A program made the position numbers and the translations under genes. 64,000 nt of DNA from a virus. Positions 8,144-48,800 of the stretch are shown here, piece by piece. The stretch is from the IMG/VR virus record IMGVR_UViG_3300035698_016797, positions 62,001-126,000 of that record; one strand, 5' to 3'. The stretch's first letter is position 1; every line of letters begins with the position of its first letter. Under the pieces are notes generated by a model. It made no database searches, had not been told where the DNA came from, and saw only the letters and a list, made by a program, of their open reading frames with translations.

Positions 8144-10504
8144 CTATATTGTGCTCAACAGTTGCAGATCATTTACTATGAACGACGACCCGCGTCCTAT
8201 TGAACCGTACAGCAGGTAAACCTTACCGATCTCAATCTGTTCTTTCAACGTCGGGTATTTTGATGGAAATATTATTGCATCCATGTCTCTTTGATCTTTC
8301 GATATGGAAAGGAATGCCATTTCCTGACCTTGGGTCTTACCTTTCTTTACTATATGCTCTCTAAAGTCATTTACAATGCCCGCGAGACATAAATCTTCAC
8401 TTTTTCTATTGAACCCCAGACCATCAACTACATCTGCAATATCAGTAGTGGTCTCACTGCGAATGATTTTCTCGAACGGCGTCATAGGAGAGGCGGTAAG
8501 ATATGCATCCGTCATAGTCTTCTCGTCGTCAAGCATCTCTTCGAAAGTCTGATGCTCTTCACTCTCTATCTCATCCAGGTCACACTGTGTAACCTCTTCT
8601 CTCGTGAGTTCTTTACGTAGCTTTGTGCCTTCAGCCTTACGCTTCTGCTGTTTCTTCATCTTGTCTACGATGGGTCTGAGGTAATGATGCTTGGCAATCA
8701 ACACCTCTCTGTCACTGCCGAAGCAATCCAGGGCACCGGCACGAATCATTGAGTCAACAGCTTGACTGTTCAACGTGTTGAAGTCAGTTTCTATGAGGAA
8801 CTCAGCCATGTTGGTATACTTACCTCTGGCCTTGACAACTTCACGAGCCGCGTACGGACTGACGTTCTTAATGAATGCCAAACCGAACTCAATCTTCTCG
8901 CCATCACGAATCTCGAAGAACGCTTCACTCGTCATGATGGAAGGTCTTATCACATCAATCCCGAAGAACCTTGCCTCTTCCACATACATGCCGACCTTAG
9001 AAACCTGTGAACCACCATACTCTCCGTTGAGAAGTTCACACAGGAACTCGATTTTGTAATGAGCTTTCAGATAAGCGGCCTGGAAAGTGATCTTACCATA
9101 AGAAGCGGCATGACTTTTGTTAAAGCTGTACCTCTGTCCCTTCTCAATGTATCCAAACACCATCTCCGCATCTTCTCTTGTTCTTCCCTTACGTTCCATT
9201 GCACGCTCGATGAACGGTTCTTTGATCTCTGCCATCTTCGATGCAATCTTCTTACCGATAGCTTTCCTCAAGTTGTCCGCCTCTGCGAGTGTGAACCCTG
9301 CAAAGTCCTGAGCCGCTCTCATTGCCTGCTCCTGATACACCATGATGCCATAGGTTTCCTTAAGCGCACCCTCAAGAGACTCGTGCATATATTCGACCGG
9401 TTCATCACCTCTTCTTCTGGCAATGAAGGTCTGGGTGGTGCCTGCATCCATGGTTCCGGGACGAATGATTGCATTCATCACAACCACATCCATGAAGTCT
9501 TCCATGCCCATGGTCCTGCAAAAGTCCTGCACATACTTACGCTCAAGCTGAAAGATGCCTGTGGTATGTCCATCGGCAAACAGCTTTAGAGTGAGAGGAT
9601 CGTTGAGATTGATCTTCTCTATATCTATCTTGGGTTTACCATCGAAAGCAAGGTCTCTGTTGATCCTCTGCACTGCCTTATCAATTACAGTCAAGGTGTT
9701 CAAGCCGAGGAAATCCATCTTGAGGAACCCTGTGTCCTCAATGTCATACATGTCCCATTGGGTTATGTATACGTCTTCCTTCTTTGTTCCAGCTTTGAAG
9801 AACAGAGGCATGTATTCAACCACATCCTTTGGTGTAATCAGAACTCCAGCCGGATGTTTGCCCGGTTGACGAACCTTTCCAGAGAGGAAGCCTGCCATCT
9901 GAAAGAGTTCAGGATACAAGGCTTGCTGTTTCTGAAGGAATTCAGAGCCTTCCACCGCATCTTCAAGTGTCCTACAGGACGCAGGGATAGCCTTAGAGAT
10001 GGTGTCACCAACCTGAACGTAGTTGTCTATCTGTTGTGCCCTTGAGACGTCTCTGATGGACGCTTTCGGCCCCATGGAGCCAAATGTGATGATGTGTGCG
10101 ACTCTATCAGCACCGTAGCGGTCGCGAACGTATTCGATAACGCGTTTTCTTTGCTCTTTACAGAAATCCATATCTAAATCTGGCATAGATATACGCTCTG
10201 GATTGAGGAACCTCTCGAACAGTAGGCCGAAGTAGATTGGATCAAGTGTCGTAATGTCCAGTGCATAGCACAAAATACAGCCAGCACCACTACCACGACC
10301 AGGACCAACTGGGATACCTCTCTGCTTAGCCCACGAAATGATGTCTTCAACGATCAAAAAGTAATCACAGAAGTTCATCGACTCTACAACCCCAAGCTCA
10401 TATTCTTTACGCTTTAAGTACTCTTCTGTTGTAGGGATGCCCTTGGCAATCCATCCCTCTTCAACCCTGAATCTTAGATAGTCAAAATTTAGATTGTTAG
10501 ACAT
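8144..10504 (-). CDS. dnaE: DNA polymerase III alpha, catalytic part
   Basis: C-terminal, catalytic half of a bacterial-type family C replicative polymerase, 786 residues. It begins at the thumb/palm junction, then shows VGPGRGSGAG (palm), the two catalytic aspartates in P-D-L-D-M-D-F, and the third in L-K-M-D-F-L-G-L, so the metal-binding triad is intact. Fingers, helix-hairpin-helix and a C-terminal OB-type domain (about 700-786) follow. A TGGAG site eight bases upstream selects the ATG at 10504 over a GTG four codons earlier. The PHP half is encoded separately at 10699-12351, with a 75-residue gene between. Both together match a full DnaE, so the enzyme is probably reconstituted from two chains. 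Confidence 0.93.
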   Translation of the reverse strand: MSNNLNFDYLRFRVEEGWIAKGIPTTEEYLKRKEYELGVVESMNFCDYFLIVEDIISWAKQRGIPVGPGRGSGAGCILCYALDITTLDPIYFGLLFERFLNPERISMPDLDMDFCKEQRKRVIEYVRDRYGADRVAHIITFGSMGPKASIRDVSRAQQIDNYVQVGDTISKAIPASCRTLEDAVEGSEFLQKQQALYPELFQMAGFLSGKVRQPGKHPAGVLITPKDVVEYMPLFFKAGTKKEDVYITQWDMYDIEDTGFLKMDFLGLNTLTVIDKAVQRINRDLAFDGKPKIDIEKINLNDPLTLKLFADGHTTGIFQLERKYVQDFCRTMGMEDFMDVVVMNAIIRPGTMDAGTTQTFIARRRGDEPVEYMHESLEGALKETYGIMVYQEQAMRAAQDFAGFTLAEADNLRKAIGKKIASKMAEIKEPFIERAMERKGRTREDAEMVFGYIEKGQRYSFNKSHAASYGKITFQAAYLKAHYKIEFLCELLNGEYGGSQVSKVGMYVEEARFFGIDVIRPSIMTSEAFFEIRDGEKIEFGLAFIKNVSPYAAREVVKARGKYTNMAEFLIETDFNTLNSQAVDSMIRAGALDCFGSDREVLIAKHHYLRPIVDKMKKQQKRKAEGTKLRKELTREEVTQCDLDEIESEEHQTFEEMLDDEKTMTDAYLTASPMTPFEKIIRSETTTDIADVVDGLGFNRKSEDLCLAGIVNDFREHIVKKGKTQGQEMAFLSISKDQRDMDAIIFPSKYPTLKEQIEIGKVYLLYGSIGRGSSFIVNDLQLLSTI

Positions 10505-10724
10505 TGCCAACTCCACATATAGAAAATTCTCTAGTTAATCTGTAACACACCTCTATCATCAGTGCTTTATTCTGAGACGGAACATCATCCCACGGCACAG
10601 AAGATTCGTCTCTTGTTGAATAACCAAACGATGGGGCAAGAGACTCGTACAAATAGTGAAAGCGTTCAGCCAAATATTCCGGGTAAACGTTTCCAGCCTT
10701 ATTTTTGAATCTTTTTTTGGTCAT
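10497..10724 (-). CDS. small protein between polymerase halves
   Basis: Unknown 75-residue protein encoded between the two parts of the polymerase, overlapping the catalytic gene by eight bases and the PHP gene by 26. It is helical, with the pattern LAERFHYLYESLAPSFGY then VPWDDVPSQNKALM and a C-terminal helix. Similar short sequences with W-x-x-(V/L)-P-x-x-x-(K/R) occur in many uncharacterised phage proteins. It is not an intein or intron endonuclease by any motif I can see. It might bridge the two polymerase chains or be an unrelated insertion. Confidence 0.65.
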   Translation of the reverse strand: MTKKRFKNKAGNVYPEYLAERFHYLYESLAPSFGYSTRDESSVPWDDVPSQNKALMIEVCYRLTREFSICGVGNV

Positions 10725-12351
10725 TTTTCCACCCTATAAATTTGTCATAGTCAGAGGATTGTGTTATGTCAAAACTGGGAAACTTGTACCCTTGAAAGTC
10801 GAGTGCAAAGTCAACCCTATCTGTTATCTCTAATGTAGCGTCTGCCATTTCAGCGGTCAAGCTACCTGTTATCATTTGACCTCTATTCTTAAAGAAGAAG
10901 TCACTTGATGAGAACTCAAGCCCACCACTGTTGCCAGTAGCAACCTTCAGCAAAGTGTTTTGAATAGCGTGGTCTTCTTGCTTTAAGTAGTGACAGTCAT
11001 TAGTCATCACACTCTTAACGCCTTCGTCTTCTGCCATGTTAAGTATCTCTGGGACTAAGTCGTCGTACAAGGGCCAATCAATATGCATTACTTCGTTGTA
11101 AAACCTGTCTCCAAACATTCCTTTCAACATCTGCATGTTAGCTCTGGCCTTATCAATATCACGAGCTTCTTCTGAAAAGTGATATGAAACTGGACTTTTG
11201 TAGCAACCAGACAGTACAATCACACCTTCAGAATGATCCGCAAGCATCTTCTTGTCAATCCTGGGACGATAGTAGAACCCATCTCTCCCGGCAATAGAAC
11301 AGAGCTTCACCAAATTCTGCCAACCCTTCTCTGTCTGAGCAAGCAATACAAGGTGGTAATTACCACGGTTCTCCCGACTTGATGCGTCATCAACGTAGTA
11401 AGCCTCGAACCCATGTATTGGCTTCACTCCTACATCCTTACATGCCTGCTGTTGTTTATAGCATCCAAACATATATCCGTGGTCAGTCAACGCAAATGCT
11501 GGCTGTCCTATGTCGTGAACGTGTTGAGCAATAGCCTCTGGTGACGGAACCCCGTCAAGAAACGAGTATTGTGAGTGAACATGAAGATGAACAAACTCTC
11601 CGTTATCTTCTGGCTTTTCAGGACTATCCTCTTCTATCCACACATGTTTTACCTCGCCCCCATCATCTACGACCTTAAAAGCTTCTGGGTCTGGTCTGGA
11701 AAGTTCTTGTGCCACTACCTTGGCGGCTTCTACTAGCGAAACCTCAGCCTGTTTGTCTTCTTCTTCGAGCTTTTTAGAAAACTCATCAAATGAAACGTGA
11801 TCATAGTCTTCTATTACAATCGGTCGCGTTGCAACATCGTCTTCGAACATTGAGGATGGAACGTATACTGTTTCTGTATCTGTGGATTTATTAAATTCAT
11901 AAACGAGTTCCGTTTTTTTGATTAACTCAACAAAGTTATTAGGAAGATGTGTTGAATGCTTACTCTGAGAATACTTAGCTCCCAACGTGCGAGCCACAGT
12001 TCTTCCGAACTGTTCGGCAGAAACCAATTGTATTACAGAGTTCTTGGGATTAAAAAACACAAACGTCTTCGGCATTAAACCTTCTACGGCAATCCGATCG
12101 GCCAAATAAAAAAAGTATCCCTTCTTACCACCCCTCTTAAGTACAACGGGAATCCTTCTGTGTTCATCCTCGTCTCCAAGATTATAATCTACGATAACCT
12201 CAAAGTGAATACTTTTACCAACCGAAATAAGTCTGTTACCTATCAATCCCATACGGCCAGTAGGTTTGAACGATCCAATATCTGAACCGAAAACGAGGGG
12301 AAGAGTGTGTGACACATACGCATCAATTGTATTTAGATTGAGATCTGCCAT
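10699..12351 (-). CDS. dnaE: DNA polymerase III alpha, PHP part with extension
   Basis: N-terminal half of the split polymerase, 550 residues. A PHP domain occupies about 252-550, with its metal ligands: H-L-H-V-H-S at the start, T-D-H-G, G-F-E-A-Y, and N-D-C-H-Y near the end. PHP domains in bacterial alpha subunits act as proofreading 3'-5' exonuclease or stabilise the polymerase; intact ligands suggest activity. The first 250 residues are unusual, since PHP normally starts at the N-terminus of DnaE; this part has strand-rich segments and a helical acidic linker with no recognised family. AAGGAGT seven bases before the ATG selects 12351. The gene ends just where palm sequence would begin. 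Confidence 0.88.
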   Translation of the reverse strand: MADLNLNTIDAYVSHTLPLVFGSDIGSFKPTGRMGLIGNRLISVGKSIHFEVIVDYNLGDEDEHRRIPVVLKRGGKKGYFFYLADRIAVEGLMPKTFVFFNPKNSVIQLVSAEQFGRTVARTLGAKYSQSKHSTHLPNNFVELIKKTELVYEFNKSTDTETVYVPSSMFEDDVATRPIVIEDYDHVSFDEFSKKLEEEDKQAEVSLVEAAKVVAQELSRPDPEAFKVVDDGGEVKHVWIEEDSPEKPEDNGEFVHLHVHSQYSFLDGVPSPEAIAQHVHDIGQPAFALTDHGYMFGCYKQQQACKDVGVKPIHGFEAYYVDDASSRENRGNYHLVLLAQTEKGWQNLVKLCSIAGRDGFYYRPRIDKKMLADHSEGVIVLSGCYKSPVSYHFSEEARDIDKARANMQMLKGMFGDRFYNEVMHIDWPLYDDLVPEILNMAEDEGVKSVMTNDCHYLKQEDHAIQNTLLKVATGNSGGLEFSSSDFFFKNRGQMITGSLTAEMADATLEITDRVDFALDFQGYKFPSFDITQSSDYDKFIGWKNDQKKIQK

Positions 12352-12377
12352 GCTTAGTACTCCTTTTGTATGCAAGT

Positions 12378-25546: not shown

Positions 25547-26005
25547 TTAAAACGGGATGTCATCTGCAAGGTCATCTTCATCGCTCTCTGGAGCAGGCTT
25601 AGCGGGTGCCTTTGCCTCTTCTTTTTCTGGAGGAACATCCATATTAGGATCTGCCTCTCCAAGAATCTTGTAGTCTATTACAAAGAACTCGTGTTCATAC
25701 CTACGATTGCCATCCTTGTCTTCCCACGAACGCGTACGATAAGACGACACTATTCCGATAGGAACATTCGGAGTAAGCTCTTCGGCCATCCTTTCTGCAA
25801 TTTCTCCCCATGCAATTATAGGGACATAAGTACTTCTAAACTTCTTCTCTCCAGAAGTCTGTTCGAGCCAGCTCTCTGTAATCTTTAAATTAACCTTGGT
25901 TAAAATGTTACCACTATCAAAAGTCTTCGTTTCAACTCCCGTTTCATACCTTTTGCTAGGACAAACGGTGCCTTCAAATCTACAAATGTTCTTTTCATCA
26001 GCCAT
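25547..26005 (-). CDS. ssb: single-stranded DNA-binding protein
   Basis: SSB of 152 residues. Residues 1-110 form an OB fold with typical strands (RFEGTV, KVNLKITE, YVPIIAWGEIAERM, GIVSSYRTRSWEDKDG, YEHEFFVIDYKIL). A proline/glutamate-rich linker leads to an acidic tip D-D-L-A-D-D-I-P-F, the same as bacterial SSBs, which binds many repair and replication proteins. It protects single strands during replication and could recruit the phage primase and nucleases. AAGGAG lies upstream of the ATG. Confidence 0.92.
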   Translation of the reverse strand: MADEKNICRFEGTVCPSKRYETGVETKTFDSGNILTKVNLKITESWLEQTSGEKKFRSTYVPIIAWGEIAERMAEELTPNVPIGIVSSYRTRSWEDKDGNRRYEHEFFVIDYKILGEADPNMDVPPEKEEAKAPAKPAPESDEDDLADDIPF

Positions 26006-26046: not shown

Positions 26047-27111
26047 TTACTCGCTTGTGATCATATTGCAAGTGATTTTGTTAGAAAAAGACATTAAATT
26101 TTGCAACGTACCACGATCCAAATCTCCCAAATCCTTATCTTCCGGCGGAAGATATTGATACACTGTACAAAAATTCACAATCTGTTTTACATTATTGTGA
26201 GATGCCATAATTCCTTCAGAGTCTCCGTCTAGTGCCATCAAAACACTATGAGAGTGTTCAAGCAACAGTCTTCGCTGTTCAAGCGTGATTACCTTTCCCA
26301 TTAATGCCACAACATTATAGACTCCCATCATCCAACACTTCCACACGTCGGAAAAACCTTCTGCCACAACAACAAACCCTTGTTCTTCTATGTAGGGCAA
26401 AGCGTTGGAAAGATTATATAAGTTATCTCTTTTTTGACTTCCGCTCAATATTTTATACTTGTCTCCAACATAGTATGGATCAAGCACCCTTCCAGACACG
26501 CCAACAATTTCTCTGTCTACATTTCTAAACGGAACAGTTACCCTATCCTCTTTCCATTCGCTCCTATATCTTGGACAAAACCCAACCTGATATGAGGACA
26601 ATACGTCCTTAGAAAAACCTCTTTCAAGGAAGTAGGCGCACTTTCTCCTAGTACACTCTTCTATAAAAGCCTCATTAATATCAGGACACACGTAGTCTCC
26701 TATTCTTTTTCTGTCCCTTAGCATTTCTTTTCGAAATGCCGCAACATCTTCCATGTCTCTATTCCTAGAGACGTAGACCTCTTCGTAGTCATCAAGGCTC
26801 ACCCCTACAAAAGAGGCAACCCAGGCTATCGACTTTGGAAATGACACATCATACAGCTTCATTACCAGAGAGTATACATCTCCGGCATCACTGCACTTAG
26901 TTCTACACATCCATCTCAGAGGTCTTTGTCCTGTCACATCATAGTCTATAGAGAAAGCTGTTGTATTATCTCCTTTATGAATAGGACATGTTCCTCTAAT
27001 CTGGCCATATCTATCCTTTGCAATCATCAATCCAACCTTATCTGCAAGTTTGTATGCGTCTACACGCTTCGCAAGGTCATCAAGCTGGTCTTTTGTTAGT
27101 CTAGTGCTCAT
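26047..27111 (-). CDS. dnaG: DNA primase
   Basis: DnaG-type primase, 354 residues. A zinc-binding domain is present near the N-terminus (C42-x2-H45 and C69-x3-C73). The catalytic core follows, with the basic RCPRYRSEW-like region and the Toprim residues: E in VVVAEGFSDVW (about 225) and the D-G-D pair in LMALDGDSEGI (about 275). It is shorter than bacterial DnaG because the helicase-binding C-terminal domain is missing or very short. The ATG at 27111 has GGAG seven bases upstream and follows the helicase stop by four bases, so the two are co-translated. Confidence 0.9.
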   Translation of the reverse strand: MSTRLTKDQLDDLAKRVDAYKLADKVGLMIAKDRYGQIRGTCPIHKGDNTTAFSIDYDVTGQRPLRWMCRTKCSDAGDVYSLVMKLYDVSFPKSIAWVASFVGVSLDDYEEVYVSRNRDMEDVAAFRKEMLRDRKRIGDYVCPDINEAFIEECTRRKCAYFLERGFSKDVLSSYQVGFCPRYRSEWKEDRVTVPFRNVDREIVGVSGRVLDPYYVGDKYKILSGSQKRDNLYNLSNALPYIEEQGFVVVAEGFSDVWKCWMMGVYNVVALMGKVITLEQRRLLLEHSHSVLMALDGDSEGIMASHNNVKQIVNFCTVYQYLPPEDKDLGDLDRGTLQNLMSFSNKITCNMITSE

Positions 27112-27115
27112 TTTA

Positions 27116-28702
27116 TCACTCCAATGACCCTTTTTCTGACTGCGCAATAACATTAGTGCTAGTGTCTTCTACTCCATATTTTCTTTCCCTTTTACTGTCT
27201 GCACCGTTTGCGCTCCTAACTTCCTTTAGAATGTCTTCTGGGACATTGCATTCTTGATAGGATATTTTTGGACCACTATACATTAGGGGTATTCCCTCAA
27301 AACATGTTGGACCCTGTCTTTGATCTACAACATGTAACATCTGATTAAAGTAAAATTCTGGATCATAACGGTTAACAACAGCAAGTTCTGATTCCGTAAG
27401 CTTCCTAAGCCAAATCAAACATGTGCAAAAACGAAGTAGTCTGTCTGAGTCTGCGAGAAACTTGTCAGCATATTCGGCAGACGTACCATCAACATCCTTT
27501 CCTTTGCCAGACCTGTTAGCCTGTGCCCCTGCAACCACAGGAACATCAAGTTCACGGGCTATGTTTTTAATTGCAGTAGCTATGTATCCAAGTTCTTGGT
27601 ATTCTTTGACATTATTTCCAAACCCACCACCATCTACAACCTTGAGCCAATCATAAACAATGAGACAAGGTTTAGTTTTCATCTCTCCGTTAATCTCTTC
27701 CTCTCCAACGTGCTGAGTCTTAAACTGGCGACACCTACTGATTAACTCCTCTTTCGATAAGCCTTTAACTGCGGAATAAAAGAACGGTGCATTATTAAAC
27801 AGACTAACAACGTCATTAACTTTCTTGGTTTTATCGACGTCGTCTGCAAACTTTCCGTCAAGAATATCCCACTCCTCTACGTCTGCCCACCTTGCAATTG
27901 CCCTTGACAACTGCTCCTCTTCTGACATTTCTGTATCCAAATAAAGAACTGGTATGTTTTGATGACAAGCTACATCTATAGCCATGTTGAGAAAGAATGC
28001 AGACTTCCCTGTCTTCGGACGTGCAAAAACAATGATCAACTGCTTCCTTCTAACTCTGTTTAATACCTCCATCAACTGAGGAAAAAGTCCAACATCAATA
28101 CCTGCACTGTTTGTTCCTCGCGCAAGAATACATCCCTCAACAAACTTTTCAGCCATCTCTCCCAGCTTAACAATATCCTGGTTCCCTCTGTCTGAGGAGA
28201 TGTTTAGAATCATTTTTTCTACGTCTGCTAAAAACTCTCTCCTTGGTACGCGAGATGCGTCGAGAGCTTCTCTCTGAATTTCGCGAGCCTTACGATATGT
28301 GTGTACCCTATCACTTCTTTGTCTTAGGGTTTCGACATACTGATCAAACGATTCTGTTTTTGCAGGAGACTTCTCTATCAACTCAAGATGCTCCATATCT
28401 CCAACCTTCTTTAGGAATGCATCTCCTCTTCCAAGTTCCTTTGCCGCCGACAACATAGACATCGAGTCGTAGAAGGCGTCTTTTCCATCTCTGAGTTGTC
28501 TGTTGTGTAAGTATACCATCGTTTGATAAATGGTTCTGTTGTACAGATTAAAGATATCTTCGGGCTTAATAGACAGTCTCGCCTGTGCCATAAGTACAGG
28601 ATCTTTCATAATTGCCGACAAGAGTGCCCTTTCTGCTCCGGTATCATACATTGATGATTCTTCATCGAAGAATTGTTCTTCTTGTATTATCGTTTTAGCC
28701 AT
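27116..28702 (-). CDS. dnaB: replicative DnaB-like helicase
   Basis: Hexameric replicative helicase, 528 residues. Residues about 20-170 correspond to the DnaB N-terminal domain (AERALLSAIMKDP, then IYQTMVYLHN). The RecA-like motor begins near 205 with Walker A A-R-P-K-T-G-K-S (227-234), the VLYLDTEMSEEEQ segment, LIVYDWLKVV as Walker B, and QANRSGKG downstream. It would unwind DNA ahead of the phage polymerase III and recruit the adjacent primase. AAGGTAA precedes the ATG. Confidence 0.92.
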   Translation of the reverse strand: MAKTIIQEEQFFDEESSMYDTGAERALLSAIMKDPVLMAQARLSIKPEDIFNLYNRTIYQTMVYLHNRQLRDGKDAFYDSMSMLSAAKELGRGDAFLKKVGDMEHLELIEKSPAKTESFDQYVETLRQRSDRVHTYRKAREIQREALDASRVPRREFLADVEKMILNISSDRGNQDIVKLGEMAEKFVEGCILARGTNSAGIDVGLFPQLMEVLNRVRRKQLIIVFARPKTGKSAFFLNMAIDVACHQNIPVLYLDTEMSEEEQLSRAIARWADVEEWDILDGKFADDVDKTKKVNDVVSLFNNAPFFYSAVKGLSKEELISRCRQFKTQHVGEEEINGEMKTKPCLIVYDWLKVVDGGGFGNNVKEYQELGYIATAIKNIARELDVPVVAGAQANRSGKGKDVDGTSAEYADKFLADSDRLLRFCTCLIWLRKLTESELAVVNRYDPEFYFNQMLHVVDQRQGPTCFEGIPLMYSGPKISYQECNVPEDILKEVRSANGADSKRERKYGVEDTSTNVIAQSEKGSLE

Positions 28703-28713
28703 GTGTTGTTACC

Positions 28714-29346
28714 TTATTTGTTATCGTTTGTATGCTTTGGTGCCAAACTTCCATACTGTACTTCATGTTGACGCATTTGCAAAGTCTTTTTAAGACTGTT
28801 ATCTAATTGTTCTAACACGCTAGCCATCCCATCACACTTAGCACGAAATACCTGAAATGCGTTATGTCGCATCTCTCTTTCTCTCAACTTGGGATATGTA
28901 GCCACAGCCTCAGCTTCTCTTTCTCCAACTGTTTTACCACTACATCTAGTAGAATACAGCTTTAACATTCTCTTAAACTCCACCTTTGACATATCACACA
29001 TCACTCCCCAGTGATTCTCCTTTCCCTTTACAAATACGATATGAGCAGCCAAACACATTTCGTATTCGTGTAGTTTAATCAGTGGGCAATCAAATAGATA
29101 TGCTTGATTCCACCTCATATAATGAATAATTTCTTCGAGAGCATTTCCCTCTTCATAGGAGTCTGGACTTTCCAGAGCAGCTGTTCCAAGTTTCTTAGTT
29201 GCAACATTTGCCAACCTCTTTACTCTGAGCCTGTGTTCCTCTCCGGCAACAGCATGTCTCAAAAGTTCCTCGATCTCTATCTCTTCATGTGCCTCCACAT
29301 CAGATTCTGGAGTCTCAGCTTCGATGTTTTTGATTTTTTCTACCAT
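28714..29346 (-). CDS. hypothetical helical protein
   Basis: Unknown protein of 210 residues. It has an acidic N-terminal helix (residues 1-30, rich in Glu), a central helical region, and a C-terminal helix. No motifs or membrane segments are recognised. The start at 29346 is preferred because GGAGG lies nine bases upstream, and it follows the nuclease stop by one base; the frame is open further upstream. Position between the helicase and a small nuclease suggests a replication accessory role, such as helicase loader, but there is no Walker motif to support an ATPase loader. Confidence 0.65.
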   Translation of the reverse strand: MVEKIKNIEAETPESDVEAHEEIEIEELLRHAVAGEEHRLRVKRLANVATKKLGTAALESPDSYEEGNALEEIIHYMRWNQAYLFDCPLIKLHEYEMCLAAHIVFVKGKENHWGVMCDMSKVEFKRMLKLYSTRCSGKTVGEREAEAVATYPKLREREMRHNAFQVFRAKCDGMASVLEQLDNSLKKTLQMRQHEVQYGSLAPKHTNDNK

Positions 29347-29347
29347 T

Positions 29348-29668
29348 TTAGATAGCCTCCATAATTCGCTTGTAAACCAATTTTTCTGTAATCTCTTCGT
29401 TGTAGGCAAAGGTTATCAGCCTCGCGTGGTTTTCTTTACACCACTCTCTCTTCATAACATCATAGCCTTGTTGTTTTTGAAAGGCAAGTATGTCTTGGTG
29501 AAAATGTCCAACGCGCTCAAAGTGCTGAATTCCATGACACTCAATGGCTATATCCAGTTGCGGAAGAAAAAAGTCTAAGAAAAATGAGTGCTTATTGTTG
29601 AAGTCGTCTACTACTTCAATTTTATGCTCCTGCCACACCTTCTGTAGGGGTAGAATCTTTTTCAGCAT
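29348..29668 (-). CDS. Vsr-like small endonuclease
   Basis: Small nuclease-like protein of about 106 residues. It has the Vsr/restriction-endonuclease-like pattern: strand F-F-L-D-F-F-L-P then LDIAIECHGIQHFE, in which D and E are the predicted metal ligands, followed by a helix, then Q-x-x-x-D and K-x-E-W-C and a closing strand ARLITFAYNE. It would cut or nick DNA. The start is uncertain: the frame is open to 29731 inside recA, and 29668 is chosen so that only one helix precedes the core. It overlaps the end of recA by about 47 bases in another frame. Confidence 0.65.
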   Translation of the reverse strand: MLKKILPLQKVWQEHKIEVVDDFNNKHSFFLDFFLPQLDIAIECHGIQHFERVGHFHQDILAFQKQQGYDVMKREWCKENHARLITFAYNEEITEKLVYKRIMEAI

Positions 29669-30821
29669 TATCAGTAGGATTTTCTGCATCCTGGATGCAT
29701 TCTTTGTCAGTAATGTTCTGTGCTTCGCCATATTCTCTACCTTTGCGTTTCATTATATAATGTTCTATGACCTGTGTGCGCAAATTATCAAATAAATCCA
29801 TCTCTTCCATAAAGAGATTCTTTAGCTGTCTTAATCCCTGAACCTTATGATCTCCGATAGTAATCCAACTACTATCCTTTTGTACAAGGCTGTACTCTGT
29901 GGCGAGTTTCATACAGTCTGCTACGGAATCAATTCCAAGACCATACTCGATGTTAAACTCTGCTGTTCTAAATGGGTTGTCAATCTTGCTTTTGGCAACC
30001 TTACCTTTAACAGTATGTCCAGTAACATCCCCTGTTGGAGTTTTAATTGACCCCGTTCTACGCAAGTCAAGACGCACAGAAAGTGCATGTTTCAAAGCCC
30101 TGCCTCCTGGAGTAGTCTCTGGACTTCCAAACGTAACTCCAATTTTCTCTCGAATCTGATTGGTCACAACACATGCGGTGTTTGATCTCTCTAGCTGTAG
30201 GGGCAGCTTGTTTACCATATCAGTAACAAGCCTTGCCAGTGTGGCAACATGTCTATCTCCAATTTCTCCCTTCATCACAGCCTCTGGAATCAATGCCGCA
30301 ATAGAGTCTAATATCAGAAGACCTATCTCTCCGGTGCTAATGAGATTTAAAACTGCCTTAACAGCATTCTCTCCTGTATCAGGCCGAACAACCAACAGGT
30401 CATTAGTTGAAACCCCTTGTGCACTTGCATACTTAAAGTCGTACGCATGTTCGGCGTCAATAAATGCACACTTCAAACCCTGCATCTGTGCAGATGCTAT
30501 AAGGTGACTACATAATGTAGTTTTACCACAACTCTCAGGACCGAACACTTCAGTAAGACGTCCACGAGGAACTCCCATTGAATATGTTCCATCGGCTCTT
30601 TTTGAAACAGGACCGATAGCGAAGTCCAAAGCTAAAGAACCTGTTGAGATCTGGTCGTAAACTCCCATGGCTCCATCTTCTATACCTATTTGATAGGTTG
30701 TATCAGAATCTTTACAGATAGTATTGAGAGTATTTGTAATAAGTGGAGAAAAAGTTTTCTGCTTAAGCTTTAACTCTTTACCTACGTCTTCAACTGTGGC
30801 AACTTTCTTTCGTCTACCCAT
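29622..30821 (-). CDS. recA: RecA recombinase
   Basis: RecA-family strand exchange ATPase, 399 residues. Walker A is G-P-E-S-C-G-K-T (94-101; bacterial RecA usually has Ser at the fifth position), followed by CAFIDAEHAYD, the LLILDSIAALIP Walker B region, the L2-type stretch with NQIREKIGVTFG, and GGRALKH. The C-terminal 60 residues are longer and acidic relative to Escherichia coli RecA. AGGAG precedes the ATG. It would catalyse strand invasion for repair and recombination-dependent replication. Its C-terminal coding region overlaps the nuclease gene in a different frame. Confidence 0.94.
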   Translation of the reverse strand: MGRRKKVATVEDVGKELKLKQKTFSPLITNTLNTICKDSDTTYQIGIEDGAMGVYDQISTGSLALDFAIGPVSKRADGTYSMGVPRGRLTEVFGPESCGKTTLCSHLIASAQMQGLKCAFIDAEHAYDFKYASAQGVSTNDLLVVRPDTGENAVKAVLNLISTGEIGLLILDSIAALIPEAVMKGEIGDRHVATLARLVTDMVNKLPLQLERSNTACVVTNQIREKIGVTFGSPETTPGGRALKHALSVRLDLRRTGSIKTPTGDVTGHTVKGKVAKSKIDNPFRTAEFNIEYGLGIDSVADCMKLATEYSLVQKDSSWITIGDHKVQGLRQLKNLFMEEMDLFDNLRTQVIEHYIMKRKGREYGEAQNITDKECIQDAENPTDNAEKDSTPTEGVAGA

Positions 30822-30878: not shown

Positions 30879-31946
30879 TTAGTTATTTTTATTTCTTACT
30901 TTTTTCCTATACTCTTCTGTTCTTTTGGACATCAATTCGTGAGCCTTCTTTGCTGTGTCAGAATTACGCAAGTTGTGCAGCCTTTCCTGCTCTGTAATAT
31001 CTTCAAAGATTTGCTCTACTATGTCCATTATCCATTGTGTACCTATGACGGCCATACTAGGCTTGATAGGTCTGTTAATCTTCTCCGAAATCTTGTCAGT
31101 ATGAAGGAATATTGTTTTTAGTAGCCTATAGAGGATTTTGTTCCCATACTTTTTCATATACCGACCCATCAATTTACAATCTTTACCCCATACAGGAAAA
31201 CTGAGGACACTTGTTGTGTCTTGACTGTGTGCAATACCACAGAAATAGAATATCACAAAATCTCTACTGGTCCAGTCTGAGATGTTCTTTTCAAGAGTCT
31301 CTTCTAGTAACATGTATTCTCGATACACAGGGTAAGACTTAAGAGCTTCGTCTGGATCAACCTTAACTCTCTTATCCTTTCCATTAGAAGAAGATTTTTT
31401 AGATTCTAAAGGAGAAGCGACAACGCTCGCTTCCTTCTCTTCAATATGAGTCTCTTCAATATGAGTCTCTTTAAGGGAGGTTAACCCCTGTTTACTTCCC
31501 GAGGTTAACACGGGTTTACTTCCCGAGGTTAATATGGGTTTACTTCCCGAAGTTAACACGGGTTTACTTCCTGATTCCAACTCTTCGTCTGCAAGAGCAG
31601 ATGCGTCTATATTATCCAGTTCAGAATCTCCTTCGTGGAAGAGAGGATGGTCTAAAAAGAAGTATACACAAGACCTGTTATTTCTTCTGTCAACACCTTT
31701 TGGTTTTGTAACTTCTACTAGTGCCACGTTTTCTAGCTCTACTAAATATTTGAGAATAGTAGGTTTTGAAACTCCTAGTGCTTCTGCAAGAGTATTTTGT
31801 TTGGGGAAACAAAATCCATCTCTTCCTGCATATTGGGCGAGTCTACCATATGTAATCTTAGCACCGGCAGATATGATTTTGCTTTCAACAAGACAGTTCG
31901 GAATAAAGATTCCAACAAACTTCCTGTGTGGATTTATCCTATTCAT
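30879..31946 (-). CDS. HTH replication-initiator-like protein
   Basis: Protein of 355 residues. Residues about 20-105 are a winged helix-turn-helix of the HTH_36/replication-initiator type: AKITYGRLAQYAGRDGFCFP, then LAEALGVSKPTILKYLVELE and a wing ending in SCVYFFLDHP. Residues 125-170 are low complexity: four copies of the eight-residue unit S-G-S-K-P-x-L-T and two of E-T-H-I-E. The C-terminal 180 residues are helical and unassigned. Similar N-terminal domains occur in phage and plasmid replication initiators. It is the first gene of the leftward replication block, with AAGGAG before the ATG. The repeats in its DNA may be its own binding sites. Confidence 0.75.
   Translation of the reverse strand: MNRINPHRKFVGIFIPNCLVESKIISAGAKITYGRLAQYAGRDGFCFPKQNTLAEALGVSKPTILKYLVELENVALVEVTKPKGVDRRNNRSCVYFFLDHPLFHEGDSELDNIDASALADEELESGSKPVLTSGSKPILTSGSKPVLTSGSKQGLTSLKETHIEETHIEEKEASVVASPLESKKSSSNGKDKRVKVDPDEALKSYPVYREYMLLEETLEKNISDWTSRDFVIFYFCGIAHSQDTTSVLSFPVWGKDCKLMGRYMKKYGNKILYRLLKTIFLHTDKISEKINRPIKPSMAVIGTQWIMDIVEQIFEDITEQERLHNLRNSDTAKKAHELMSKRTEEYRKKVRNKNN
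31438..31467. repeat. two 15-bp direct repeats
   Basis: Two contiguous exact copies of a 15-base unit beginning TCTTCAATATGAG (31438-31452 and 31453-31467). They encode the repeated pentapeptide E-T-H-I-E in the initiator-like protein and lie just beside the four larger repeats. Confidence 0.85.
31477..31572. repeat. four 24-bp tandem repeats, possible origin iterons
   Basis: Four contiguous copies of a 24-base unit, GAGGTTAACACGGGTTTACT followed by TCCC, at 31477-31500, 31501-31524, 31525-31548 and 31549-31572, differing from each other at one to four positions. Each contains a GTTAAC-type palindrome or a close variant. They are in frame inside the initiator-like gene. Repeats of this size inside an initiator gene resemble the lambda origin, which lies within gene O. 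Iteron function is inference. Confidence 0.75.
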
Positions 31947-45889: not shown

Positions 45890-48800
45890 TTAAACGTTGG
45901 GTTCTATACTACTATCTCTTTCTTTCAAATAAACTACAACAGTAGGAACCCCAAAGCATATTCCTTGTCTGCCTGACGCAATCGCGCCAACCTCAACACC
46001 GACTGAAAATCCTGTATATTTTAGTCCTCCAGTACGGTCCCATTTCACAATATGCTCTCCATCGGCCCAATATTCGTGTTTAGTTTTTGCCGCTGCGTAC
46101 ACAGTAAAGTTCCCAGAAATAATTGATTGAGGCAATCCGTAGAATGTCACCTCTCCACTCACCATTCCTGTTATATATGATCCAGAAGGACTAGTTTGGT
46201 ATGTTCCTCCGAAATATTGATTTGTTATTGCTTCCTCTGTCCATCCCCCAGCAGGAAGTTCATTACCTTTTATATGTGACATTCCAAAATCTCCATACAA
46301 AGGATCATTGTTGGTAACTGTCCAATTCAGGTTGTATTTATTGTTGCTATTTGTAGGAAGCTTTACGGACTGACCCATGGATGGAAGTTGACCGAACGAT
46401 GTCGGGATTCCATCTGGAGTTGAAGTTCCAGCAGGCTCATATCCTGCAATAAAATTGACAGAATCCTTTTCAAGTTGATAAGATGGACCACCTCCAACAG
46501 CGGTAACATCTATATTGATTGGCATTCCTACTCCAGTAAAATATTCGACCTGTACAAAACCAGGAATGGTCATAACTTTAAAATCATTTGGATCAAGGTC
46601 GTTGTTTAAGTCCCATATGTTTCCCCCTGCGGTTCCATCTGGGTTCTTAAAATATCTTGGTAACACTATTTCGTTCTTTGCTGGATCAAAAAAGTAACGA
46701 CCACCAGTAACGGCAAAATATGTCAAGTTTGTATTTGGATCTACTTCGGAGGCTGTGTTCCAATAAAAGTCTGATGATGTTCTTGAAGAAGACTCGGTCA
46801 TCGGAAGGTGTACCGTATCGTAGACTCCAGCATTAACAGATAAAATCCTAGACGGAAAGTCTGGCATGGCAAAGGCGTCCATTCCTATAACATATGGAGT
46901 GGAAAACACAGAGGCAGAATCTGTAACCTTCATATAGCTTGGCTTTGACTCGTATCCATACACTTCAAGTTTTGCACAAGATGAAAGATAAAAGTATTTC
47001 CACACCCTCCACTCTACATAGCCGGAAGTGTCAGTCGGACCACCAGCTAGGTCAAATGTTGTTTCAGTGTTAGCTACAACCGTATCGGTAAACGCCGGAG
47101 ACGTAAAATTGCCAGATGCCGTGGTCATTTCAAACGTTGCACTTGTCCAATCATCATCCTCTACTTCGTACCCAGAAGGCATTTCATATTGTCCACTTGT
47201 AGACACCAAAGAACCTACAGGTAACCCAGAGCTTCCAACCATATACCTCTTAAATCTTCGAGGTTTTGGACGATATCTTACATATCGTGCACGAGGAGAT
47301 ACGAAGTGATATCCGCTAATAGCAGCGCCCGCACTCGTTGAATCTCCACCATTAACCCAATATCCCTTGAAGAATGTTGGCAATTCTGAACCAGTTTCTG
47401 CCACTTTTACTCCAGAAGTATCATACTTTGTCCAGGTCCACTCGTTGCCACTTTCAGACCAGCTTGTACTCACTATGGTTTTCCACCTAGACTCTTCATC
47501 TCCAAGCACATCTATGTCAAAACCATGCTTATAATCATCAAGAATTGAAGGTGTGGGATTTACAGAAATAGCTTTTATAAATACATCATCATCAAATGGC
47601 TCTTCATAGGTAACTGTTTCAATTCCATCACCACCTTCATAGATTGCCCCAGTGGCAGGCAAGGTTGTCAAATCCGACCCACAAACAGAGCATATTGTGG
47701 AAGTTATAGATGGTGCCGTGGCAGACTTTCCAGCTCCCTGTACATATTGTGAAAATTCAGAGACTGTCATGTTGCGATGTCCAACATAACATTCTGAAGC
47801 TCCACACACAGCATTTGCACAGTTCCACTTTCCAGGATGACGACGCCAATCGCGTCTTATATTCTCTATTGGAAGAGGGATTAGATCAATTTGAAAATTT
47901 GGAACTTCAGAAGTTTGTTTTAGTACATACCAATATCCACTCGCAGATGGAGTCCCAGAATTTTCAGCAGTGTCTGTGGCTGTAATAATTTGCTTTGGAT
48001 GATAGGTATAATAGTCTGAATTTTCAGGGTCTCCAGAGGCTGATGGAGGAGTATACCAATCACTTACAGCCGAAATACGACCAGATGCAGCCGTACTGAG
48101 ATTATATTCATCTCCATAAACCAATGTTGGAAGATTGTTGTCAGCAGCAAGTTTTGGGTGATGCCACGGATCGTTTAACCATGCACCATGGGTAGAGTTC
48201 CAATATCTATAGTTGATAGCTCCACTAGGGTCGCTGTCTCCATCAAAAAATGCTGGATTTGTTCTGTCAGAACGATTTTGATTATGTAGTTCATCATAGG
48301 ATATCCCAGCAGAAGTTGTAAATGCTCTAGGTATTCTTTTGTCATACCTTTCTTTTACCACATCTGTGATGTCAAGGACTCTTGTTGCCCATCCTCCATT
48401 GTTGTTACCAGAACCTCCAGAAGAGTAGGAAGAAGGACTAGTGGAAGATGTGCTTGATGTTTTTAGCTTAAACCCATCACCACTCTGAACAATAACCTCT
48501 CCTCCTTCAGCCCAGGATGTGTCCGACACCTTTTCTTCTACCACTGGGCCAGTTCTTTGATACCACATTTTTCCATTCATACCACTCAAGTCTTGAAAGT
48601 TTGTAATTGGTTGTACCCAATTGTTAAGGTATAGAGAAAGTAATCTTTGACTAAACATGGTAAAATCATATCCAACACCATCAACATCAAGATCTCCACA
48701 CTTAAATGTTAGCTTCATCTTGTCTCTGTCAATCTTGTCGCTGAATTCCTGAAATGTAAAATCTTTCCACAGCTGATCTTCAGTATACTTTTGTACCATA

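Follow-up and report, generated by a model that had tools for sequence, protein, structure and literature searches.

A tandem repeat array inside an HTH_36 initiator gene is a predicted part of the replication origin of a 181-kb phage

The window analyzed here is a stretch of 64,000 nucleotides that corresponds to positions 62001-126000 of a virus record of 181,030 bp in total. The terminal 127 bases of the record are identical at both ends, which gives a circular map of 180,903 bp. On the minus strand of the window we found the gene of a winged-helix replication initiator, with its ATG at 31946 and the sequence AAGGAG just before it, followed by recA, helicase, primase and SSB genes that together form the replication module of the phage. 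The features of this locus are the following:

30879-31946, minus strand: winged-helix replication initiator, 355 aa (sequence and ORF list; HTH_36 and PHROG 270 matches)
31635-31946, minus strand: N-terminal winged-helix DNA-binding domain, aa 1-104 (homologous across the relatives L020-L022; structure model)
31477-31572, minus strand: complete array of putative iterons, 4 x 24 bp (TRF score 148; permutation test)
31552-31567, minus strand: putative iteron 1, GTAAAC CCGT GTTAAC, a 6-4-6 imperfect inverted repeat
31528-31543, minus strand: putative iteron 2, GTAAAC CCAT ATTAAC, with 4/6 arm pairs
31504-31519, minus strand: putative iteron 3, GTAAAC CCGT GTTAAC
31480-31495, minus strand: putative iteron 4, GTAAAC AGGG GTTAAC, which differs from the other units in its spacer
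31436-31471, minus strand: 15-bp direct repeats, 2.4 exact copies of TCTCTTCAATATGAG (TRF)
30882-31358, minus strand: C-terminal domain of the initiator, about aa 197-355 (by position only)
29622-30821, minus strand: RecA/UvsX-like recombinase (Pfam RecA, E 3.6e-78)
27116-28702, minus strand: DnaB-like replicative helicase (DnaB_C, E 6.1e-28; PHROG 19, E 2.3e-54)
26047-27153, minus strand: DnaG-like primase (PHROG 47, E 1.1e-37)
25547-26005, minus strand: single-strand binding protein (Pfam SSB, E 1.3e-12)

Between the initiator and helicase genes lie recA, a homing-endonuclease-like ORF and an ORF of 231 aa. The homing-endonuclease-like ORF (29348-29731, minus strand) overlaps the 3' end of the recA ORF, whose frame may be altered there, and the 231-aa ORF (28714-29409, minus strand), which has no convincing family match, directly precedes the helicase gene and is, judging by its location alone, a candidate loader. 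Further downstream of the block there is a gene for a DNA polymerase III alpha-like protein, split over two minus-strand ORFs (8144-10513 and 10699-12372) with a 75-aa ORF between them; one carries the PHP-like part (PHROG 405 positions 36-336) and the other the catalytic part (337-1053). Elsewhere in the genome, among nucleotide-metabolism genes at 46972-48249, a reverse-transcriptase-like gene matches PHROG 2825 'polymerase' (E 3.7e-65) and PHROG 1423 'Reverse transcriptase' (E 2.4e-13).

Residues 25-72 of the initiator match HTH_36 (PF13730) with an E-value of 4.2e-9, above the cut-off, and the protein also matches PHROG 270, 'replication initiation protein' (E 1.3e-13). Using an alignment with three relatives, residues 1-104 were modelled as a winged helix with a pLDDT of 85.5 and a pTM of 0.80. 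The best PDB folds for the modelled domain were 5kbj, 4pql, 4pt7 and 4pta (E from 1.1e-4), which we take to be staphylococcal RepA_N proteins. Among the titles of the matched entries are 'Structure of Rep-DNA complex', 'Structure of initiator' and 'Structure of MDR initiator', and the fold comparison to these Rep/initiator entries gave a TM of about 0.6 and an rmsd of about 9; MarR-type structures were also found among the fold matches. A single-sequence prediction of the full-length protein was useless (pLDDT 38.5). Regarding other families, Pfam Phage_rep_O (PF04492) gave no match to the initiator, RepA_N was absent from its Pfam matches at E up to 0.1, and Pfam and PHROG searches returned no convincing family for the C-terminal part. 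The C-terminal domain is presumed to contact the helicase, a loader or the primase.

The array occupies nucleotides 373-470 of the initiator gene, in which the codons of the DNA-binding domain end near nucleotide 312. The first-pass annotation had described four contiguous near-identical 24-bp units, each with a GTTAAC-type palindrome or a close variant, lying in frame in a winged-helix gene next to two further 15-bp repeats and followed by a helicase and a primase. All of this was borne out: TRF detected the four units with 88% matches; counted from 31477, units 1, 2 and 4 carry GTTAAC and unit 3 carries GTTAAT; 24 bp correspond to 8 codons of the minus-strand gene; the 15-bp repeats are present beside the array; and the DnaB-like helicase and the primase, as well as RecA and SSB, are encoded on the same strand. 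In the coding direction the unit reads TCR GGA AGT AAA CCC GTG TTA ACY, with variable CCC and GTG codons, so that the units encode SGSKPVLT, SGSKPILT, SGSKPVLT and SGSKQGLT, that is, SGSK(P/Q)(V/I/G)LT.

Each unit contains a 16-bp imperfect inverted repeat with 6-bp arms and a 4-bp spacer, in which 5/6 arm pairs are formed in three units and 4/6 in the remaining one. The core GTTAACNNNNGTTTAC is absent elsewhere in the 181-kb record, and five matches to a 21-base pattern, with up to 3 mismatches, were reached in 0 of 100 shuffles of the window. The self-similarity of the array was 51.5, compared to at most 32.5 in 400 synonymous-codon permutations, and the codons of the residues common to the units showed an identity of 0.944 versus 0.661 under independent recoding (0/20000). 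Most differences between the units are nonsynonymous and most lie in the 4-bp spacer, and the wobble bases of the arms are kept. A 6-4-6 dyad with at least 5/6 pairs arises in 25% of random recodings of SGSKPVLT, which makes the inverted repeat weak evidence in the window alone, and we therefore dropped the dyad symmetry of the window units as proof of a DNA site. Outside the window, at genome 42483-42570, there is another strong tandem array (18 bp x 4.9); it lies in a gene that matches a JAB domain weakly, and it encodes a TGKAPA linker. We set it aside as a rival origin since it reads as a linker, and its presence indicates that a tandem array alone is not diagnostic.

Searches for relatives with the whole initiator, RecA, helicase and polymerase as queries against viral contigs found none, and neither tblastn of the initiator against phages at E 1e-3 nor megablast of the region against phages gave a match. 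Searching the iteron as a DNA pattern returned no relative with the window's own iteron, and no genome with a 70-95% identical initiator turned up in the collections covered. Using a 56-residue winged-helix query, we obtained the three nearest relatives, L020 and L021 among viral contigs and L022 among bacterial genomes, with winged-helix identities to the window of 50%, 45% and 57%, respectively. L020, a virus contig of 126 kb, is the nearest viral relative; it has a DnaC/DnaI-like loader near the position matching the 231-aa ORF of the window, and its DnaB-like helicase ORF (L020:7850-10426) encodes 858 aa with an apparent intein in the ATPase domain, judging from the translation.

All three relatives carry 16-bp inverted repeats directly after the winged-helix codons, with sequences other than those of the window. 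In L020, CGGACA-N4-TGNCCG occurs three times, 23 bp apart and in three reading frames, so the copies encode PPDTYDR, PRTHMTG and PPGQMCPP; its self-similarity was 37.5, versus at most 19.5 in 400 synonymous permutations (0/400). L022 has two copies of GTGNCN-N4-TGTCAC, 23 bp apart and in two frames (0/400), and L021 presents four sites, 21, 24 and 23 bp apart, with a change of frame at the last one (2/400). Since 23 is not a multiple of 3, repeat copies in the relatives are read in different frames, and selection on the peptide cannot keep such repeats. Comparing DNA with protein conservation across the relatives, the inverted-repeat layout is kept, the sequence and spacing of the repeats change, and the encoded peptides are unrelated.

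The layout extends to a wider family. L022 is 45% identical over 67 residues (E 2e-9) to the 'DNA replication protein O' of the mEp lambdoid phages, and in mEp044 we found GTGAC-N5-GTCAC at spacings of 22 and 23 bp, out of frame. Arrays of 22-24 bp in mixed frames occupy the same position in D_HF5_3, in Leuconostoc LLC-1 and in a faecal phage, and in-frame arrays of 24 and 45 bp were found in phages c5 and Efs 1-1-1. The parallel with lambda drawn in the first-pass annotation holds in layout, as the four annotated iterons of gene O are 20, 24 and 23 bp apart, fall in three frames and gave 0/400 in the permutation test. The 23 initiator genes, counting those of the window and lambda O, form a convenience sample of weak matches, and seven of them had no convincing in-gene array: those of Jenst, LIBA6276, AR1074-1, Dulem virus 31, Listeria LP041 and FADO, and a Geobacillus plasmid gene. 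Site patterns across the family were drawn after inspection, and the self-similarity permutation test was automatic. In the Bacillus phages PJN02 (L009:4816-5026) and FADO (L016:2316-2522), the inverted repeats are AT-rich, of the type TATTAAATTTTTTAACA and mostly spaced by 22-34 bp, and they are found immediately downstream of the HTH initiator gene, possibly as a relocated origin.

The short direct repeats that follow the iterons are new here and are the least expected part of the locus. Within the 15-bp repeats of the window, AGAGACTCA occurs at 31462-31470 and 31447-31455 and is the counterpart of AGAGANTCA repeats in L020 and L022. Read in this way, AGAGANTCA directly follows the array three times in L020 (13 and 14 bp apart), twice in L022 (13 bp) and twice in the window (15 bp), with its copies in two frames in both L020 and L022. 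Neither the window's genome nor the L020 record has another place where two copies of AGAGANTCA lie within 20 bp. Synonymous recoding matched the self-similarity of this second module in 0/2000 cases for L020, 1/2000 for the window and 20/2000 for L022; no such excess was seen in L021 (377/2000) or lambda (483/2000). Repeats are also present at this position in D_HF5_3 (1/2000), PhiR40 (12/2000), B1578 (15/2000), and c5 and LLC-1 (20/2000 each).

We also looked at base composition. With raw third-position GC skew, the origin and terminus that fitted best were at 96-97 kb and 0-1 kb of the genome, almost opposite each other; the array is near 93.5 kb on this map. When only fourfold sites were used, the break shifted to 112-120 kb and was not significant, since 24 of 85 rotations did equally well, and the synonymous skew conditioned on amino acids favored 120-152 kb. 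As the break near the array was lost under these controls, we treated the first result as an effect of amino-acid composition and gave skew no weight either way. The skew switch that the first-pass annotation had suggested looking for does not appear robustly at the array, and the L020 contig has no skew switch at its initiator either. In lambda, an AT-rich tract belongs to the origin (PMC7466680). No AT-rich tract adjoins the array in the window, where AT is 0.57 in the next 60 bp versus 0.62 for the gene and reaches 0.70 only at gene nucleotides 531-580.

In order to contextualize these results, we compared the locus with known systems. Lambda O with its origin and the window locus have in common four inverted-repeat iterons within the coding sequence of the initiator, immediately behind its DNA-binding domain, a spacing in the range of 20-24 bp, and replication genes downstream. 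They differ in that lambda O matches Phage_rep_O (5.7e-36) and the window initiator does not, in the iteron sequence, in the AT-rich tract, which the window lacks directly beside the array, and in the P-type loader, as none was identified in the window phage. Unlike lambda, the window phage has a 181-kb genome with its own DnaB, primase, SSB, RecA and DNA polymerase. The HTH_36 domain is shared with mEp044/mEp021 O, the initiators of Lactobacillus c5 and Leuconostoc LLC-1, and pPR9 Rep. The phage members of this group have inverted-repeat iterons with the same placement, directly after the domain and 22-24 (or 45) bp apart, whereas their iteron and peptide sequences differ from those of the window. 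Most phages with HTH_36 initiators have small genomes and depend on the replication machinery of the host. Finally, the RepA_N protein pSK41 Rep has four boxes inside rep, just as the window has four repeats inside its initiator gene, although there is no Pfam RepA_N sequence match and the fold TM-score is only about 0.6.

Several readings of the array have to be weighed. One alternative, also named in the first-pass annotation, is a low-complexity SGSKPxLT linker expanded by slippage; on this reading the DNA itself would have no role. The window units share one frame and hardly differ, their identity is something that recent slippage by itself could account for, and the same genome holds an undoubted linker array, that of TGKAPA. 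Taken alone, the window sequence cannot settle the choice between a linker and a DNA site. The relatives weigh against the linker: they keep repeats at the same place in the gene with 22- or 23-bp spacing, in other frames and with other peptides. A linker would be expected to conserve the peptide and leave the DNA free to vary, and the opposite was found. The frame-changing repeats thus favor iterons, the mostly nonsynonymous, spacer-centered differences between window units point the same way, and we consider the linker improbable.

A slightly better, though still small, chance goes to a regulatory reading, in which the repeats would be sites for self-repression or copy-number control by the initiator, with replication starting elsewhere. 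Sites within the gene itself would permit feedback, many winged-helix proteins with this fold act as repressors, as reflected in the MarR-type fold matches, the repeats of FADO and PJN02 lie downstream of the gene instead, and GC skew does not mark the array. Against this, sites about 375 bp into the coding region are unusual for self-repression, the layout matches that of the lambda origin, where such sites act as origin, and a second repeat module adjoins the array. It is least likely of all that the array is an origin bound by a host protein or another phage protein: it accompanies the winged-helix initiator gene across relatives, its sequence changes with divergent initiators in the way a protein and its binding site would be expected to change, and both lambda O and pSK41 Rep recognize sites within their own genes.

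We therefore regard the array, with good confidence, as the predicted initiator-binding part of the phage replication origin, embedded in the initiator gene. An origin of this kind is known from lambda O and pSK41 Rep; in the present case the initiator is of the HTH_36 type, and the phage, unusually large at 181 kb, encodes its own replisome. In lambda, the iterons within gene O are inverted repeats to which O binds as a dimer (PMC7466680). The Rep protein of pSK41 recognizes four boxes located within rep, the encoded middle of the protein being a dispensable linker, and pPR9 Rep, of the HTH_36 type, supports autonomous replication (PMC5703833). By analogy, each inverted repeat would be occupied by a dimer of the winged-helix domain, and several such dimers together would fold the DNA around themselves to give an O-some-like complex. 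Strand opening would follow next to the array, perhaps within or close to the AGAGANTCA repeats, and the C-terminal domain would then recruit the DnaB-type helicase, primase and SSB that the phage encodes. In the protein, the residues specified by the repeats would serve as a tolerant linker, as has been reported for pSK41 Rep.

Direct repeats are present in the unwinding elements of oriC and RK2 and, in general terms, of lambda (PMC10797057). From these known elements, it is a fair guess, and only a guess, that the second module may help to open the duplex. Extending this to HTH_36 initiators of large and small phages, we tentatively propose a two-part in-gene origin, in which inverted-repeat iterons about 22-24 bp apart are immediately followed by a second family of direct repeats of 12-15 bp, with the sequence AGAGANTCA in the group of the window and AATAATACA or AACCAGTCA elsewhere; either the initiator or the helicase, once loaded, would use these direct repeats to open or hold the duplex. 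We think this generalization possible, with the odds against it. If it were true, the second module would replace the plain AT-rich tract of lambda in the window's group.

A text search of a literature library found no paper on iterons at replication origins of jumbo phages. The array predicts the replication start site of an uncultured 181-kb phage with its own replisome, and in-gene inverted repeats whose spacing is independent of the reading frame offer an in silico test for such origins. The second module, in turn, is a concrete candidate opening site for origins without an AT-rich tract.
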